DNA of 32,055 bases from Roseiflexus sp. (GCA_025062325.1 JANXAL010000052.1:1-32055), one strand, 5' to 3'; shown: positions 10,700 to 19,687, counted from the first letter of the stretch. The notes: generated by a model from the sequence alone, not told the origin. Translations and numbers: made by a program.

Positions 10700-11740
10700 A
10701 TGCAGATTACGGACACACTGGCGCGACCGTCGGTAGCGCGGCTCCCATGGGTGACAATCGGGGTATGGGGCGGGTTGGCAATCCTGGTTCTCGTCGCCTA
10801 TGCGCGCGCGCCACAGGCGACGACGGCAGTGCTTACTTCGACCATCCGCCAGTCAACGCCGATCATCCTCGGTGCGCTGGCAGGCATTATGTGCGAACGG
10901 TCTGGGGTGATCAACATCGGCATCGAGGGCATGATGTTGATTGCTGCGTTCCTCGGCTTTATGTTCAATGTATGGACGGGCGACCTGCTCCTGGCGACGA
11001 TGGGGGCGCTGCTTGTCGGTGCGGCGGTTGGCGCGTTCCATGCGCTGATGTCAATTACGCTCAAGGTCGATCAGATCATCGCCGGGACGGTCATCAATAT
11101 CCTTGCTGTGGGTCTGACCGGCTATTTCTACCAGCAGGGTCTGACGACGCGCGGCAAATTGACGCCGGTGAGCATTCCAGTGCTGGCGGACATCCCAATT
11201 ATCGGTCCGGTGTTCTTCAGCAACCCGCCGATCACCTACGCCTCGCTTGTCCTGATCGTCGTCATTCATGTGCTCCTGTTTCGCACCGTCTGGGGGTTGC
11301 GCACGCGCGCCGTGGGCGAACATCCCGCTGCAGCCGATACCGTCGGCATTGCGGTCAATCGGGTGCGCTACATCAATGTCATTATCGGCGGCATGCTCGC
11401 CGGTCTGGCGGGCGGATTCCTGACGCTCGAATCGGTTGGCTCATTCGAGCGAAATATGACTAATGGACGCGGCTTTGTGTCGCTAGCAGTGATGATCTTT
11501 GGCAAATGGACGCCATTTGGCGCCTGGGGCGGGTCGTTGCTGTTCGGTTTCGCCAATGCGCTCCAGTCGCAGATCCAGTTCCTCAAAAATCAACTTCCGC
11601 CCTGGCTGGCGTGGATCGGTGATCTGCCGCCGCAGTTCATCGGAATGTTGCCATATGTGTTGACGATTGCCGTTCTGGCTGGCTTTGTCGGACGCGCCCG
11701 TCCGCCAGCCGCAATCGGAAAAGTGTACGAGAAGGAATGA
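10700..11740 (+). CDS. ABC transporter permease, BMP/nucleoside type (second permease)
   Basis: A 346-residue membrane protein paired with the preceding permease, so the transporter channel is probably a heterodimer. Family stretches are STIRQSTPIILGALAGIM, CERSGVINIGIEGMMLIAAF, the ATPase-contact loop KVDQIIAGTVINILAVGL, and RTRAVGEHPAAADTVGI. Eight to ten hydrophobic helices are visible. AGGGGGA lies 8 nt before the ATG. The stop overlaps the ATPase start in an ATGA arrangement, a sign of translational coupling. Confidence 0.9.
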   Translation: MQITDTLARPSVARLPWVTIGVWGGLAILVLVAYARAPQATTAVLTSTIRQSTPIILGALAGIMCERSGVINIGIEGMMLIAAFLGFMFNVWTGDLLLATMGALLVGAAVGAFHALMSITLKVDQIIAGTVINILAVGLTGYFYQQGLTTRGKLTPVSIPVLADIPIIGPVFFSNPPITYASLVLIVVIHVLLFRTVWGLRTRAVGEHPAAADTVGIAVNRVRYINVIIGGMLAGLAGGFLTLESVGSFERNMTNGRGFVSLAVMIFGKWTPFGAWGGSLLFGFANALQSQIQFLKNQLPPWLAWIGDLPPQFIGMLPYVLTIAVLAGFVGRARPPAAIGKVYEKE

Positions 11741-13329
11741 CGATGACCGTTGAGCCTGAGATCGTTCTCGAAGCGCGCAATATCACCAAACGGTTTCCTG
11801 GAGTCGTGGCGAATGAGAATGTTAGCCTGAAGTTGTATCGTGGTGAAGTGCTTGCGCTCCTTGGCGAAAATGGCGCTGGCAAAACCACGCTGATGAACAT
11901 TCTCTACGGTCTGTATCATCAGGACTCAGGCGAGGTGCTGATCCGCGGCGAGCCGGTGCGGATCAGCAGTCCAAGCGAGTCGATCAAACGCGGGATCGGC
12001 ATGGTTCATCAGCACTTTATGCTGGTGCCAGTCTTCACGGTTGCCGAGAATATCATCCTTGGGGCCGAAACCAGCAAAGGTCCGTTTCTTGATCTTAAGG
12101 TCGCTCGTCAACGGATCCGCGAATTGTCGCGGCAGTATCATCTCGATGTTGATCCCGACGCCTATGTGAAAGACCTGTCAGTCGGTCAGCAGCAGCGAGT
12201 CGAGATTATCAAGGCGCTCTACCGCAACGCTGATATTCTCATCCTTGATGAGCCGACAGCGGTGCTGACGCCGCAGGAAACCGAAGAGCTGTTCGCCATT
12301 ATTCGCTCACTAACGGCGCGGGGCGCGTCGGTCATTTTTATTTCGCACAAACTGAAAGAAGCGCTAGCGATTGCCGACCGGATCGTGGTGCTCCGGCGCG
12401 GGCGCGTGGTCGGCGAGACGACGCCGCGTGAAGCGACGGAACGCAGTCTGGCGGAGATGATGGTCGGTCGCAGCGTGATGCTGGAAGTCGAAAAAGGCGA
12501 GGCGCATCCCGGTGCACCGGTGCTAACCCTCGAGAATGTCACCGTTCTTGACGATCGCGGTCAGCAAGTGGTCAATGGCGTATCGCTCGAAGTGCATGCT
12601 GGCGAGATCCTGGGCATCGCTGGCGTGCAGGGAAATGGTCAAACCGAACTTGTCGAGGCGATCACCGGTTTGCGCCCGGTGCATTCAGGGCGAGTGCGGA
12701 TCAACGGGCGCGATGTGACGAACGCTTCGCCGCGCCGCATCAGCGAAATCGGCTGCGTCCACGTCCCCGAGGATCGCCAGGAAGACGGCCTGGTGCTGAC
12801 CTATAGCGTCGCCGATAACTTGGTGCTCAACATCTACTACGCGCCGCCGTTCGCTCACGGTGTGGTGCGGGACGACCGTGCGATCCTTAACCACGCGAAC
12901 CGCCTGATTGAGCGTTATGACGTGCGCACCCCTAGCCCGCTCACCCTCGTATCGGCGCTTTCCGGCGGCAACAAGCAAAAAGTGATCATCGCGCGCGAGC
13001 TTTCGCGCGAAGGGCGCCTGCTCATCGCCGCCCAACCGACGCGCGGCATCGATGTTGGCTCTATCGAGTTCATTCACCAGCAGATCATCGCCGAACGCGA
13101 CCGGGGCGCGGCAGTGCTGCTCGTGTCTGCAGAACTCGATGAGATTATGGCGCTCTCCGACCGGATTGCCGTGATGTATCACGGGCGGATCGTGGCGACC
13201 ATGCCCGCTGCCCGCGCCACGCGCGAAGAGTTGGGGCTGCTGATGGCGGGTGCGCAACCGTCGAATGTTGTCCAGGAACCGGCGACGGACGGACACGCGC
13301 CGGTGAGTGTTCAACGGCGTGGCGTCTGA
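11737..13329 (+). CDS. ABC transporter ATP-binding protein, duplicated type, BMP/nucleoside uptake
   Basis: A 530-residue ATPase made of two fused nucleotide-binding domains, as in sugar and nucleoside importers (RbsA/NupO type). Domain 1 has Walker A GENGAGKTT (about 42-50), signature LSVGQQQR (about 148) and Walker B ILILDEPTAVLT. Domain 2 has a degenerate Walker A (GVQGNGQTE, no Lys), signature LSGGNKQK and a Walker B with Gln in place of the catalytic Glu (LLIAAQPTRGID), normal for this family, so only one site should hydrolyse ATP well. The start could be ATG 11737 (overlapping the permease stop) or ATG 11743. It is last in the operon; here permeases precede the ATPase, while many BMP operons have the ATPase directly after the binder. 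It overlaps the convergent nicotinate phosphoribosyltransferase gene by 19 bp. Confidence 0.92.
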   Translation: MTMTVEPEIVLEARNITKRFPGVVANENVSLKLYRGEVLALLGENGAGKTTLMNILYGLYHQDSGEVLIRGEPVRISSPSESIKRGIGMVHQHFMLVPVFTVAENIILGAETSKGPFLDLKVARQRIRELSRQYHLDVDPDAYVKDLSVGQQQRVEIIKALYRNADILILDEPTAVLTPQETEELFAIIRSLTARGASVIFISHKLKEALAIADRIVVLRRGRVVGETTPREATERSLAEMMVGRSVMLEVEKGEAHPGAPVLTLENVTVLDDRGQQVVNGVSLEVHAGEILGIAGVQGNGQTELVEAITGLRPVHSGRVRINGRDVTNASPRRISEIGCVHVPEDRQEDGLVLTYSVADNLVLNIYYAPPFAHGVVRDDRAILNHANRLIERYDVRTPSPLTLVSALSGGNKQKVIIARELSREGRLLIAAQPTRGIDVGSIEFIHQQIIAERDRGAAVLLVSAELDEIMALSDRIAVMYHGRIVATMPAARATREELGLLMAGAQPSNVVQEPATDGHAPVSVQRRGV

Positions 13330-15029: not shown

Positions 15030-15284
15030 GTGTACATGATGTGGTTCGACGACAATAACAAGAAGCCAGTCGAGCGGAAAATTGAGGAGGCAATAGCAGC
15101 GTATATGCGGCATTTCAAAACGCGCCCGAATGTGGTGCTGGTCAACGAGGCAGATCGCACCGAGCTGCCCGGTATTCAGGTGCGAGTCGCCAGTTACGTC
15201 CAGCGCAACAATTTCTGGGTCGGTTGGGAAGACGCGGTGGCTCTCAGCGCAGCGGCACAGGTCGCCACCACGGGCACTCGTTGA
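15030..15284 (+). CDS. Small protein of unknown function, possible SOS-regulated gene
   Basis: An 84-residue protein I do not recognise. It has an amphipathic helix-like stretch (VERKIEEAIAAYMRHF, about 14-29), then RPNVVLVNEADRTELPGIQV (strand-turn-strand), then VQRNNFWVGWED, and an Ala/Thr-rich tail. No signal peptide or membrane segment is visible. The start is the GTG at 15030: a full AAAGGAGG (15015-15022) lies 7 nt before it, and the ATGs at 15036 and 15039 are too far away. This excellent ribosome site and the strong promoter with a LexA-like box argue that it is a real gene. Its last 41 bp overlap the end of the convergent TPR/zinc-ribbon gene, so the tail may be the less conserved part. 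Confidence 0.75.
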   Translation: MYMMWFDDNNKKPVERKIEEAIAAYMRHFKTRPNVVLVNEADRTELPGIQVRVASYVQRNNFWVGWEDAVALSAAAQVATTGTR

Positions 15285-15804
15285 CGGCAGCCCATGTCAG
15301 CGGGCTGGTGAGGCCCTGGAGTTGCTTGCAACGGGGATCATCGCGAAAGACGCAGTTGTTGCATGCGTGCACCGGCGCATTGCACTGCCAGCAGAATGTG
15401 GCGACGCTATAGAGAGTCGCTCGACACTGCCAGCACATGATCTCGACCACCTCATTCTCGTCAAATGGCGGCGGCGGAACCCACGGACCCGACCGGTCCT
15501 GCGGCTGTGCGGCAACATTCGTGGCTGACGGTGCCGCAGCGACGTTGCTCCGACCGTGGGTACGCAACCATTCTAATCCTGCCCGGGCAGCAGCATTGTT
15601 CGGATTGATCGCCAGAACATTTTCCAGTGCGATCTGCTGATCCTCCGGGTCCTCGACTGCGCCGCTCAACCAGAGCCACGCCTGCTCGTTGTGTTCATCG
15701 CGCTCAATAACCTGCATGAGCAGACGACGCGCTTCCTCGCGTCGTCCTTCGCTCAGTGCCAGAGCGCCTTCGTACAGCCAGCGCGCCAGTTCTGTGTCAC
15801 TCAT
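15244..15804 (-). CDS. TPR plus C-terminal zinc-ribbon protein
   Basis: A 186-residue soluble protein. The N-terminal half is TPR-like (ARWLYEGALALSEGRREEAR and DEHNEQAWLWLSGAVEDPED, followed by ALENVLAINPNNAAARAGLE; about residues 5-80). A Pro/Ala-rich linker (about 85-115) leads to a cysteine-rich region with CWQC (124-127), CWQC (138-141), CNNC (148-151), Cys159 and Cys177, enough for two zinc sites. These parts suggest an adaptor that binds protein or nucleic acid; no enzyme motif is seen. Its ATG follows the stop of the secreted repeat protein by 1 bp, so it is the third gene of the PHP operon. It overlaps the convergent 84-aa gene by 41 bp. Confidence 0.8.
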   Translation of the reverse strand: MSDTELARWLYEGALALSEGRREEARRLLMQVIERDEHNEQAWLWLSGAVEDPEDQQIALENVLAINPNNAAARAGLEWLRTHGRSNVAAAPSATNVAAQPQDRSGPWVPPPPFDENEVVEIMCWQCRATLYSVATFCWQCNAPVHACNNCVFRDDPRCKQLQGLTSPLTWAAVNECPWWRPVPLR

Positions 15805-15805
15805 A

Positions 15806-16750
15806 TCAACGTATCTCGAAAAGCGCTACGCGTTCAACGCCGCTGCTGACGCCGCGCACAACCATTGACCATTGACCGGGCGGTGCGTCATCAGGCGCTA
15901 TCCACGACCATTCCGCCCGCCCATCGTTAATCGCTACCCGCTCAACCGTCGCCTTTTCGGCGCGACCGTCGGGACGGTTGACCCAGAAGATTACTCCTTC
16001 GCGCCCTTGCAGTCCTTCGGCAAAAAACTGAAACAGCGATCCTGCCCGACCGCGTCCCGGCGTAACACCAACCAGCGCTATCGGTCGTTCGATGGTTACT
16101 GCCAGCGTTTGCTCAAATCGGCTATTGCCGCCCCTTACGCGGAAACGCCAGACGCCAGGCGCAGCGTTGTCCGGCGCCGTCCATGCCCAGTCGACCCGTC
16201 CGTTGAAGATCCGCGGCTGTTCGACCGCGACCAGCGTTTCCTCGCCGTCGGGCGCGGTCAGGAAAAATCCGATGGGATCGTCGGGGGCGAACCCAGCAGC
16301 AAAGAATACAAACCGCGTACCAGGTCGTCCAGTGGTTGGGTGCGCATTGGCGTCGGGCGCGGCTGGCGCAGGCGGCGGCAGAATGGTAAAGAGTCCGACG
16401 CGCACCGCGCCGCTGCGCTGACCGCGTGCGACCAGCGACCAGGTTCCCGGTTGAACGTCATTCGGTGCTGTCCAGCTCCAGGCAGCGCGACCATCGCGGG
16501 CGACGCGCCGCTGCAGTTCGCTGTCGGGTCGGGCAGGCAGCGCGCGACCGTCGGGCGTGTTGACCCAGATATCGATCCCTTCGCCGCTCTGGAACCCATC
16601 TGCGAGAAAATTGAAGCGCGTCCCTGCCTGCCCGGAGGATGGATAGACCGTTGCTGGCAGGAGGGAATCCTGCGCCGCTGCGACGCGAGATACGCCGGGC
16701 GCTACTAGCGCCGCCAGTATGACGAATGCCAGGAAGAGACGCTTCGGCAC
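15806..16750 (-). CDS. Secreted protein with three Ig-like repeats
   Basis: A protein of about 314 residues. The start MPKRLFLAFVILAALVAPGV is a Sec signal with likely cleavage after AAA, before QDSLLP. Three similar units of about 90 residues follow. Each has a P-x-x-G-x-x-G-T/S-x-F-x-F-x-A-x-G-F/L opening, a D-x-W-V-N-x-P-D-G-R-like middle, a G-R-A/V-x-W-S/A-W-T/I-A-P-D/N strand pair and a P-G-x-W-S-x-V-x-R-G close. This looks like tandem beta-sandwich modules exported to the cell surface. The open frame extends upstream to 16996, but that part is the shadow of the PHP gene. I chose GTG 16750, with AGGTGG 5 nt before it; GTG 16759 is the alternative. It lies between the PHP gene (13 bp away) and the TPR/zinc gene (1 bp away). 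Confidence 0.75.
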   Translation of the reverse strand: MPKRLFLAFVILAALVAPGVSRVAAAQDSLLPATVYPSSGQAGTRFNFLADGFQSGEGIDIWVNTPDGRALPARPDSELQRRVARDGRAAWSWTAPNDVQPGTWSLVARGQRSGAVRVGLFTILPPPAPAAPDANAHPTTGRPGTRFVFFAAGFAPDDPIGFFLTAPDGEETLVAVEQPRIFNGRVDWAWTAPDNAAPGVWRFRVRGGNSRFEQTLAVTIERPIALVGVTPGRGRAGSLFQFFAEGLQGREGVIFWVNRPDGRAEKATVERVAINDGRAEWSWIAPDDAPPGQWSMVVRGVSSGVERVALFEIR

Positions 16751-16763
16751 AGCATCCACCTGC

Positions 16764-19085
16764 CTACAACTCTCCGTACTCATCGAGCAGTTCGCGCCAC
16801 TCGCCAGACAGTTCATCGCGGCGCGCAGCATAGTAGATATGGTCAACCCCGTTTTCATCGCGGTAGACCAGATCGACCTGCTTGCGCATCGGGCGCATGT
16901 ATCCAAGGTTGCCCCACCAGCGCACCTTGCTCTCATCGAGCGGCGTGTCCTGGAGCGCCATGCGCGCTGCATACTGGCGAACCGTTCCTTCTTCAATGTC
17001 CTGCAGACGCCATGGTACGTTGCTTAGTTCACCGGTGCGCAGGTTGCGGAAGACGAAACGACGCTCACCGAACTCATCAACGATGATATCCACCACCTCG
17101 ATGCCGGTGCGTGGGCGTGGCACGCGGATCAGGTTCAGCCATGCCTCAGTCAATTTCTCACGCGGGACGCCAGGATACTCCTTGACCTCATTCCCTTCCT
17201 TGCTGCGCATCATGAGGTCAAAGTACACGTTGCCCTGCGCATCGCGCCCGATGCGCCAGATGCCGCCGCGTCCACGCCAGCGCGGTCGTCGGTCGCCCCA
17301 TGGCGCCTCGCCATTCCCCAGTTCCTCGAACAGATCCGGATCGCCCGGCGCATCATCGCCAAACGAGCGCGGCTCATGTTCGAGCGCCTCGCCGGCGCGG
17401 TCGTTGATCAGCGCCTGCCAGGCAGGACTCAAGCCCCAATCGGAGACGCCGAAGAAGATATGGTCGATGACGCCGTTTGCATCACGGTGCACAAGGTCGT
17501 ACTTGGTGCGGTTGCCCTGTCGGTAGGCGCGCCATAGACCGAGGCGACCCTTCCATTTCACCTGGCTCTGCAGATCGATCCGCCCTTCGCGCACGTCCTC
17601 GTATCGGCTGATCGCGTATGCCCACAACCCCTGCGCATGCTCGCGCGTGACTCCCGATGTGGTGCGCAGGTCGCGCACTTCATACAACCAGACGCCACCG
17701 CGCTTTTGGGCTTCGACAATCTCGACGCCGCTGCGTGGCAGGTCCAGTTCCTGACCGTTGTCAAGCGGCGTGGAGGCGCCTTCCGCCAATGCGCGCCGAC
17801 ACAGTTGAATAATTTCGGCGCGATCAGCAATGACCGTCTCGCCTCCCTGTCGTGTATAGATAACGCCGTCGCTCCCGACGTAAGGCGGCGATTCGGTGGC
17901 ACGCACCTCGACACGCAGCAGGTCGCGCCCTTCATAGGCGATCAACTCGAACGTCAGGTACGGTTGCGGTGTCAGTCGTTCCTGGACGCTGCGCCGCAAC
18001 GTTTCGCTCAACTGATCCGGATGTTCAACGCCGGTCAGTTCGGCGCCTGCGCCGCCGACAATTAGGGTCCCGCCGCCGACATTCGCCAGGGCTGCTACGT
18101 CTCGCCAGAGCGTCTCGGCAGCCGACTCTGGCCGCAGAACCTGACGATCGTTCTGGGCGCCAAACCGCAGCGAGTCGATCTCCCACTGCTTCTGATCGCG
18201 CTTGGGAACTCGCACCCGGTCAAAATCATTCGATGTGAACAATTCTTTCAGCGCAGCGAATGTCGGCGCTGGCAACAGAAACTCGACATAACGATCACCA
18301 ATCCCGTGGCGATGCCAGCCATCCCCTTCACCGGCATTCACTCGCCGGAGCCGATGCGCATCAGACCCCTGGATGCAGAACATGCGGCGCTCATAATGTT
18401 CGGTCTTCCCGTTGTAGAATGTCGGCGACGTAAACTTTTCGTGGTCGGTGTAAAAATTGATGAATTCGAGCGCGTGCAACGCCGGATGCTGGGTGGCGGC
18501 GACCCGCGCCTGACCGCTCGTGCCCATTCGCAGCGTCTCGGTAATGACGCCGTTCGGTCCGTTGGCGTGCGGCGCGATGACAATGCCGCCAGCGCGGTTG
18601 ATAATTTCGTAGGCGTCCGTCACATGCCGCGTATCGGCAATCGAACATGCCCCTTTCTTGAGCAGGTCAGGCGGAACGCCAAGTTGCAGCAGCGTCGCCT
18701 CGATCAGGCTGATAGGGCGATCTGGCGCAAAAATTCCCAGAATGTGCGCACCATAGTGTGATGTGAATTCAAACCCGGGCAGGACTGTAATCCGCGACAG
18801 CAAACGTCGGTACTCATTGAGACGATTCTGTTCCTCCTCAGTAATACGCTGTTGGCGTTCGAGCGCCTGGAGAAACTCGATCTCCTGACGCATCAATTCG
18901 TAACCATGAACCGTGTTGTGATCGGTAAATGCGATGATATCGAGACCTCGTCGCTCAGCCTCCTGCAGAATGCTAAGAAACGTGACATCTGGCTCCGCAT
19001 AGTCTTCTGAGGCAGGAGTATGAATATGTAAATCTGCTCGAAACCATCGCATTCCTCCCGTTGAACCATTCCCGCTTTGCGACAT
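16764..19085 (-). CDS. PHP phosphoesterase fused to AlbA_2/Schlafen-like and duplicated C-terminal domains
   Basis: A 773-residue multidomain protein. Residues 16-250 are a PHP metal-dependent phosphoesterase with a full ligand set: DLHIHT (His20, His22), FTDHN (Asp55, His56), LPGFEFTSH (Glu106), GAHILGIF (His114), IAPHANG (His173) and QGSDAHR (Asp242, His244). Residues about 320-430 resemble the AlbA_2 domain of Schlafen-type proteins: LWRDVAALANVGGGTLIVGG, later GVIYTRQGGETVIADRAEI. Then a module of about 110 residues occurs twice (about 453-560 and 660-770; G-x-E-x-V, F/Y-x-V/F-R-x-L-R-T, W-x-G-x-L-G, D-L-V-x-R-D-x-N-G-V-x-D-H-I), with a partial copy near 604-655. No signal peptide is visible. 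ATG 19085 has GGAG 8 nt upstream. It heads a three-gene operon. Substrate and role are unknown; nuclease or nucleotide phosphatase activity and a defence or repair role are only inference. Confidence 0.8.
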   Translation of the reverse strand: MSQSGNGSTGGMRWFRADLHIHTPASEDYAEPDVTFLSILQEAERRGLDIIAFTDHNTVHGYELMRQEIEFLQALERQQRITEEEQNRLNEYRRLLSRITVLPGFEFTSHYGAHILGIFAPDRPISLIEATLLQLGVPPDLLKKGACSIADTRHVTDAYEIINRAGGIVIAPHANGPNGVITETLRMGTSGQARVAATQHPALHALEFINFYTDHEKFTSPTFYNGKTEHYERRMFCIQGSDAHRLRRVNAGEGDGWHRHGIGDRYVEFLLPAPTFAALKELFTSNDFDRVRVPKRDQKQWEIDSLRFGAQNDRQVLRPESAAETLWRDVAALANVGGGTLIVGGAGAELTGVEHPDQLSETLRRSVQERLTPQPYLTFELIAYEGRDLLRVEVRATESPPYVGSDGVIYTRQGGETVIADRAEIIQLCRRALAEGASTPLDNGQELDLPRSGVEIVEAQKRGGVWLYEVRDLRTTSGVTREHAQGLWAYAISRYEDVREGRIDLQSQVKWKGRLGLWRAYRQGNRTKYDLVHRDANGVIDHIFFGVSDWGLSPAWQALINDRAGEALEHEPRSFGDDAPGDPDLFEELGNGEAPWGDRRPRWRGRGGIWRIGRDAQGNVYFDLMMRSKEGNEVKEYPGVPREKLTEAWLNLIRVPRPRTGIEVVDIIVDEFGERRFVFRNLRTGELSNVPWRLQDIEEGTVRQYAARMALQDTPLDESKVRWWGNLGYMRPMRKQVDLVYRDENGVDHIYYAARRDELSGEWRELLDEYGEL

Positions 19086-19240: not shown

Positions 19241-19351
19241 GGTGTTCACCCACCTCCTCTCTCGTTGCACTCACGTTCCGCTTTAATTGGTATCATACCC
19301 TAAAGCCCGTTATCCTGCAATGTGAACGTGCCAGATTTAGGAGGAGGCGCT

Positions 19352-19687
19352 ATGCCCGAGACGCCGGAGCAGATCGATGATCTGATCTACGTCCCTAACC
19401 CCAATTATCCGTATCCCTTCCCGGTTCCGCATCCGCCACATTTCTGGATGACCGAGCAGACCGGCAAACTGTCGGTTGCGGTCGAGCGGTATCTCAGCGG
19501 TGAACGGCTCTCGCCTGAAGATCTGCGGTTGCTGCGATCCTATTTGCGCCAATATGTGGCGCGTGCTGTGATTGCTAAGGGGGCTGATCGGCAGGCGCTA
19601 CTACGAAAGATCGACACGCTGAAGAGCAATCGCGACGTTGAGCGGTTTGCCGGTGAACTCTCGAAGGCGGGGATCGAACCGTTCTGA
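19352..19687 (+). CDS. Small conserved-looking protein of unknown function
   Basis: A 111-residue soluble protein I do not recognise. The N-terminal third is rich in Pro, Tyr and Asn (VPNPNYPYPFPVPHPPHFWM) and looks extended. The rest is helical: LSVAVERYLSGERLSPEDLR, LLRSYLRQYVARAVIAKGAD, LLRKIDTLKSNRDVERFAGE. Starting at ATG 19352 puts GGAGGAGG about 5 nt upstream; the frame is open 10 codons further, but that start has no ribosome site. It is transcribed alone, divergently from the PHP operon. The strong ribosome site and consistent composition argue for a real gene. Confidence 0.7.
   Translation: MPETPEQIDDLIYVPNPNYPYPFPVPHPPHFWMTEQTGKLSVAVERYLSGERLSPEDLRLLRSYLRQYVARAVIAKGADRQALLRKIDTLKSNRDVERFAGELSKAGIEPF

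Follow-up and report, generated by a model that had tools for sequence, protein, structure and literature searches.

The described systems closest to the locus considered here are the PHP-ATPases of the TrlF/Ppl/Spaf_1101 kind, endonuclease Q (EndoQ), RNase AM and TM0559, all of which carry a PHP domain, together with the Schlafen/AlbA_2 proteins and the Hsp20–Lon operon. Ppl is an anti-phage protein, and the Schlafen-type fold is usually found in nucleic acid proteins. For EndoQ, the reported conserved residues are D6, L7, H8, H10, E76, H84, H139, E167, S191, D192, A193 and H194, with SDAH named as its most conserved motif (PMC4357722). The literature searched contained nothing that pairs the terms "PHP domain" and "AlbA_2", and nothing on a PHP–AlbA_2 family. 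The window, i.e., the whole stretch of DNA analyzed here (32,055 nucleotides of Roseiflexus sp., GCA_025062325.1 JANXAL010000052.1:1-32055), encodes such a protein on its minus strand, directly followed by two further genes in the same direction.

Domain architecture of the PHP–AlbA_2 protein

The gene at 16764..19085 (minus strand) encodes a probably cytosolic protein of 773 amino acid residues, which combines a PHP domain, a Schlafen/AlbA_2 domain and a C-terminal repeated domain. The AlphaFold model of the full protein consists of three parts (mean pLDDT 76), with pLDDT values of 36-58 over residues 175-261, the region around the PHP active site. The PHP domain (residues 12-282; 18240..19052, minus strand) was delimited by fold match and invariant ligands. 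Its Pfam match (PHP, residues 18-107, E 1.6e-4) scored 22.5 bits, under the gathering score of 26.4, and the NCBIfam models of TrlF (residues 11-284, E 1.9e-29) and Ppl (residues 11-248, E 1.4e-19) gave 103 and 69.6 bits against cut-offs of 350 and 1000, respectively. No NCBIfam family cut-off was reached, and the protein does not belong to a characterized housekeeping family, a point raised in an earlier note made from the sequence alone. The metal-ligand set H20, H22, H56, E106, H114, H173, D242 and H244 is invariant in 23 aligned sequences, and the motifs HxH, H, E, H, H and DxH are present and kept in all compared rows outside genus g8 (see below). Judged from these residues, the metal site is intact and nuclease-like, of the EndoQ/TM0559/TrlF–Ppl kind, and may confer metal-dependent hydrolase activity.

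The best structural match of the PHP part is EndoQ (5zb8: Z 15.8, 259 residues aligned, rmsd 5.4; 7k30: Z 15.4, 225 residues aligned, rmsd 3.6), and residues 12-282 also match TM0559 (Z 13.2) and RNase AM (Z about 10). When the PHP profile was compared with PDB sequences, RNase AM was matched at 7.2e-5 and EndoQ was not among the matches. The conserved EndoQ residues have plausible counterparts in D18, L19, H20, H22, E106, H114, H173, E207, S241, D242, A243 and H244, assigned by motif and spacing and not by direct alignment. The last four of these form the SDAH motif (residues 241-244; 18354..18365, minus strand), which was located in the family alignment. Since the EndoQ residue set is largely common to PHP proteins, its presence demonstrates an intact site without placing the protein in EndoQ. 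A four-cysteine (Cys4) finger of the EndoQ type is absent, C147, C237 and C429 being the only cysteines among the 773 residues.

The Schlafen/AlbA_2 domain (residues 297-437; 17775..18197, minus strand) was assigned from a Pfam match (SLFN_AlbA_2, residues 323-418, E 4.9e-12) and from its fold, which aligns with the AlbA_2 domains of RecG-related proteins and DIP2311 and with mammalian Schlafens at Z 9-13. The E-x4-E-F-K motif is absent from the 12 family members aligned and present, in the same alignment, in a canonical AlbA_2 protein (L154); the Pfam match begins after the position of this motif. The domain is a Schlafen-type fold devoid of the nuclease motif and appears to be silent. In this alignment, three stand-alone AlbA_2 proteins of Chloroflexales (L150, L151 and L153; about 240-264 aa) also lack E-x4-E-F-K.

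The C-terminal repeated domain (residues 450-773; 16767..17738, minus strand) is built of units A-B, B' and A-B. This arrangement fills the C-terminal 320 residues in Chloroflexales, and the shorter distant members possess a single A-B. The domain was found in 42 of the 301 Chloroflexota genomes sampled, namely the sampled Chloroflexales and 12 others, and all matches sit inside PHP–AlbA_2 genes; outside Chloroflexales, the protein is sporadic in this phylum. No match to the domain was obtained in Pfam, or in the PDB by sequence profile. Predicted alone, the region reached a pLDDT of 84, its best VIA Z was only 3.5, and Foldseek returned no match at E below 0.001; in the genomes sampled, the domain is specific to the family, and it may still resemble a known fold.

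The three adjoining genes and their relatives

The earlier note had proposed that three genes, separated by gaps of 13 bp and 1 bp, form one functional unit. The ORFs were recovered at the same positions, in one direction and with the same gaps: the PHP–AlbA_2 gene is followed by that of a secreted protein with three Ig/MG2-like repeats (15806..16750, minus strand; 314 aa from GTG) and by that of a TPR and zinc-ribbon protein (15244..15804, minus strand; 186 aa). The middle protein has a signal-peptide-like start and three repeats (MG2, E 1.7e-8, Pfam), and the third one contains TPR_19 (E 2.8e-6) and two CxxC pairs, its double zinc ribbon being matched only below the cut-off. Pfam and NCBIfam profile searches thus agree with the domains assigned earlier (PHP, AlbA_2, Ig-like repeats, TPR/zinc). 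Orthologues of all three genes have open frames in sister genomes, demonstrating that these are real genes and not chance ORFs. A divergently oriented small conserved gene (19322..19687, plus strand; 121 aa), outside the coordinates given in the earlier note, matched no Pfam, NCBIfam or PHROGs family. The scan for promoters and terminators gave results near or below chance, with no excess of terminator-like signals. An 84-aa ORF at 15030-15284 (plus strand), which overlaps the TPR gene (on the opposite strand) at the latter's 3' end, is 67-90% conserved in Roseiflexus and in genome G009 and may be a real gene.

Each protein of the trio was searched separately in 60 relatives, and the window genes were mapped onto the fetched loci; ORF calls of the neighborhood survey were mechanical and were then checked with tblastn. 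The PHP–AlbA_2 protein is encoded in 56 of the 60 Chloroflexales genomes, nearly always as one full-length copy (four copies of family f2 and one of f4 were reported in two pieces in one frame, and two further copies are truncated at contig ends or by divergence). Among named loci, those of Roseiflexus MAGs stand closest to the PHP gene (93-96% identity); with peptide patterns resembling the window, the genome-contig scan extended only to close relatives. The maximum likelihood tree of 55 members, which is unrooted and unsure in the order among long distant branches, recovered the taxonomic groups with as few changes as possible. It is consistent with vertical inheritance of an old Chloroflexota protein, single-copy in Chloroflexales, and the PHP gene behaves like a core gene of this order.

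The collinear trio occurs in 7 of the 60 genomes, six of the genus Roseiflexus and G009 of a sister genus, in which an inserted selA (TIGR00474, E 4.5e-167) separates the Ig gene from the TPR gene; of the 56 relatives that possess the PHP gene, 49 lack the arrangement. This selA gene, encoding L-seryl-tRNA(Sec) selenium transferase, lies at 11191-12570 (plus strand) of L118. The Ig-like protein is one of a repeat family, for which each genome gave many partial matches, and its gene adjoins the PHP gene only in Roseiflexus and G009. Orthologues of the TPR/zinc-ribbon protein exist in other genera, unlinked to the PHP gene: in G006 and G011 the two genes are on separate large contigs, and in the closed genome of Herpetosiphon (G042) they are ~1.8 Mb apart. 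The small gene at 19322-19687 stays beside the PHP gene throughout Roseiflexaceae, with Kouleothrix, L036 and genus g8 included, and this link is phylogenetically wider than that to the Ig or TPR genes. In the 60 relatives searched, the three genes have three different histories, and their juxtaposition is confined to one lineage and does not amount to a conserved system. Of the earlier proposal, adjacency therefore stands for Roseiflexus and G009 and fails in the other related genomes, and the idea of one functional unit was not borne out, given a PHP gene in 56 relatives and the complete trio in only 7. The combination had also been put forward as undescribed, which holds for the PHP–AlbA_2 protein alone (below the NCBIfam cut-offs, with an unmatched C-terminal domain) and not for the trio.

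The possible defense system or island suggested by the earlier note likewise received no support from PADLOC, phage and viral searches. The neighbors in the window are housekeeping genes (argS, nicotinate phosphoribosyltransferase, an ABC transporter, larE, sensor kinases and an FtsW/RodA-type protein), and no island of defense genes was found in it. For the trio, PADLOC returned a single match, to the PHP domain of Ppl, and for ten neighbors generic ATPase similarity only. Searches of PHROGs, phages and viral contigs yielded nothing beyond PHP or generic ATPase similarity, and a defense system was rejected on these grounds. The plasmid matches listed cover the PHP domain only (<=39% of the query), several being annotated as Ppl or TrlF.

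Linkage to Lon and Hsp20, and the PHP copies of genus g8

Outside Chloroflexales, 9 of 12 genomes, representing 8 families, have the PHP–AlbA_2 gene directly downstream of Lon and in the same orientation, so that chance adjacency is not credible. Hsp20 precedes Lon in 6 of these 9 loci and a gene with a receiver domain separates Lon from PHP–AlbA_2 in 4, giving the usual order Hsp20–Lon–(receiver)–PHP–AlbA_2. The position of these distant relatives directly behind Lon, often with Hsp20, makes a stress or quality-control factor likelier than a new defense system. Adjacency to Lon is absent from the window and from every Chloroflexales locus examined. Roseiflexus, Chloroflexus, Herpetosiphon, two f2 genomes and G011 have retained an Hsp20–Lon pair at another place in the genome. 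From the gene orders, we infer an ancestral Hsp20–Lon–PHP–AlbA_2 unit that was split in Chloroflexales; because the tree is unrooted, the Lon link may alternatively have been gained in the non-Chloroflexales lineages. We considered an obligate partnership with Lon and discarded it, since several genomes retain the PHP protein although their examined Lon genes have no Hsp20 neighbor (G028, G037, G049, G052, G006, G009, G010 and g8). In the window, the region preceding the PHP gene contains no heat-shock element of the CIRCE type.

Most genomes (G000 and other Chloroflexales) gave two to six Lon matches, an unusual number of paralogues, and only one of the Chloroflexales Lon classes adjoins Hsp20. 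In genome G234 (L105, 853-6522 and 7980-13086), a perfect CIRCE precedes an hrcA–grpE–dnaK–dnaJ-like cluster, named from reading of the sequence and not by profile search; this cluster and the Hsp20–Lon–receiver–PHP–AlbA_2 genes are a few kilobases apart. The PHP frame of this genome carries one TGA.

In genus g8, the metal-binding motifs of the PHP domain are destroyed in all 10 genomes examined (two with partial copies): TDHN is replaced by TGIG or TDLG, and SDAH is gone. The complete copies have open frames of 735-771 aa. The orthologues concerned are L116, L124 and L138-L145. Between the window protein and those of g8, identity is 27-30% in the PHP part, 31-37% in AlbA_2 and 59-60% in the C-terminal domain, and the two g8 branches share 55, 52 and 77% identity in these parts, respectively; in lineages with an intact site, the PHP part is conserved about equally to the C-terminal domain or more. 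These substitutions mark the g8 protein as a putative natural pseudoenzyme. Loss of the site with conservation of the C-terminal domain implies that the latter probably has a function for which catalysis is not needed.

Proposed role and comparison with described systems

We tentatively favor, at somewhat less than even confidence, the reading that PHP–AlbA_2 serves heat-shock proteostasis, either as a phosphoesterase directed at nucleic acid or as a scaffold, the Roseiflexus trio being incidental. A client, either nucleic acid or ribonucleoprotein, would be bound by the Schlafen fold together with the C-terminal domain; the PHP site, with a substrate suggested by its fold, would hydrolyze a phosphate ester of this client, within a response to heat or protein damage in which Hsp20 holds and Lon degrades clients. 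The g8 protein, having lost the site, would be left with binding or scaffolding alone. Against this reading, the PHP domain is closest in sequence to the defense proteins TrlF and Ppl, the partnership with Hsp20 and Lon is not obligatory, the PHP gene of the window has no CIRCE before it, and the model is of low confidence around the active site; sharing an operon also speaks only indirectly for a common role. A more specific version, in which an undescribed component of the Chloroflexota Hsp20–Lon stress response joins a PHP nuclease and a silent Schlafen fold to new C-terminal repeats that would recognize damaged or stalled nucleic acid or RNP, with g8 as pure scaffold, is possible, though rather doubtful.

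Unlikely, in our estimate, is a small-molecule phosphoesterase, in which the PHP domain would hydrolyze a nucleotide signal or by-product formed under stress (pAp or an alarmone, for instance) and the AlbA_2 and C-terminal domains would sense a ligand. The weak NCBIfam matches to small-substrate PHP enzymes (3',5'-nucleoside bisphosphate phosphatase and cyclic phosphate dihydrolase), the presence of the AMP-bound PHP structure 2yb1 among the structural matches (Z 8.8) and the receiver-domain gene in four Lon–PHP operons point in this direction; however, these NCBIfam matches span the first PHP motif only, far below cut-off, EndoQ and TM0559 fit the fold better, and the usual occurrence of the Schlafen-type fold in nucleic acid proteins argues for another kind of client. 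A non-catalytic scaffold, whose PHP reaction would be secondary even where the site is intact, accords with the g8 proteins, which have no metal site and a conserved C-terminal domain, but is quite improbable in view of PHP ligands that are invariant in all other lineages examined and of a PHP part at least about as conserved as the C-terminal domain. We consider still less probable a DNA-repair endonuclease of the EndoQ kind, nicking at deaminated bases: the best structural match and the agreeing residue set favor it, whereas the missing four-cysteine finger, the absence of EndoQ from the PDB sequence matches, a gene context of proteostasis and not of DNA repair, and retention as a pseudoenzyme in one genus stand against it. 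Finally, a three-gene and possibly anti-phage system, in which an exported Ig-like protein, a TPR/zinc adaptor and a PHP effector would act together, suggested by the short gaps, single direction and collinearity of the trio (with an insertion in G009) and by the kinship of the PHP domain with Ppl and TrlF, is highly improbable given the 49 PHP-bearing relatives with other arrangements, the selA gene inside the trio, the lack of phage matches and of a defense island in the searches described, and the universal, single-copy, vertical pattern of the PHP gene.

The placement of the gene directly behind Lon in distant relatives, often with Hsp20, suggests a tie between hydrolysis of nucleic acid or nucleotides and protein quality control. 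Chloroflexales almost universally keep this uncharacterized protein, with a C-terminal domain unmatched in the libraries searched, and genus g8, with its dead PHP domain, separates catalytic from non-catalytic roles without mutagenesis.

As for the Hsp20–Lon operon, 9 of the 12 non-Chloroflexales family members adjoin Lon, 6 of them with Hsp20 before it, whereas the PHP genes of Chloroflexales, including that of the window, no longer do so. The AlbA_2 fold is shared with the Schlafen/AlbA_2 proteins (SLFN11-14, DIP2311 and RecG-related proteins), but in the window protein it lacks E-x4-E-F-K and is fused behind a PHP domain. RNase AM and TM0559 share the PHP fold and are single-domain proteins, lacking AlbA_2 and the C-terminal repeats. 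With EndoQ, the protein has in common the PHP fold and a counterpart of each reported conserved residue; it differs in having AlbA_2 and C-terminal repeats instead of a Cys4 finger, and in its lack of a repair context. The TrlF/Ppl/Spaf_1101 PHP-ATPases possess a similar N-terminal PHP domain over about 240-270 residues, but the window protein does without their AAA-like ATPase half and is encoded by a chromosomal core gene, not an accessory one.
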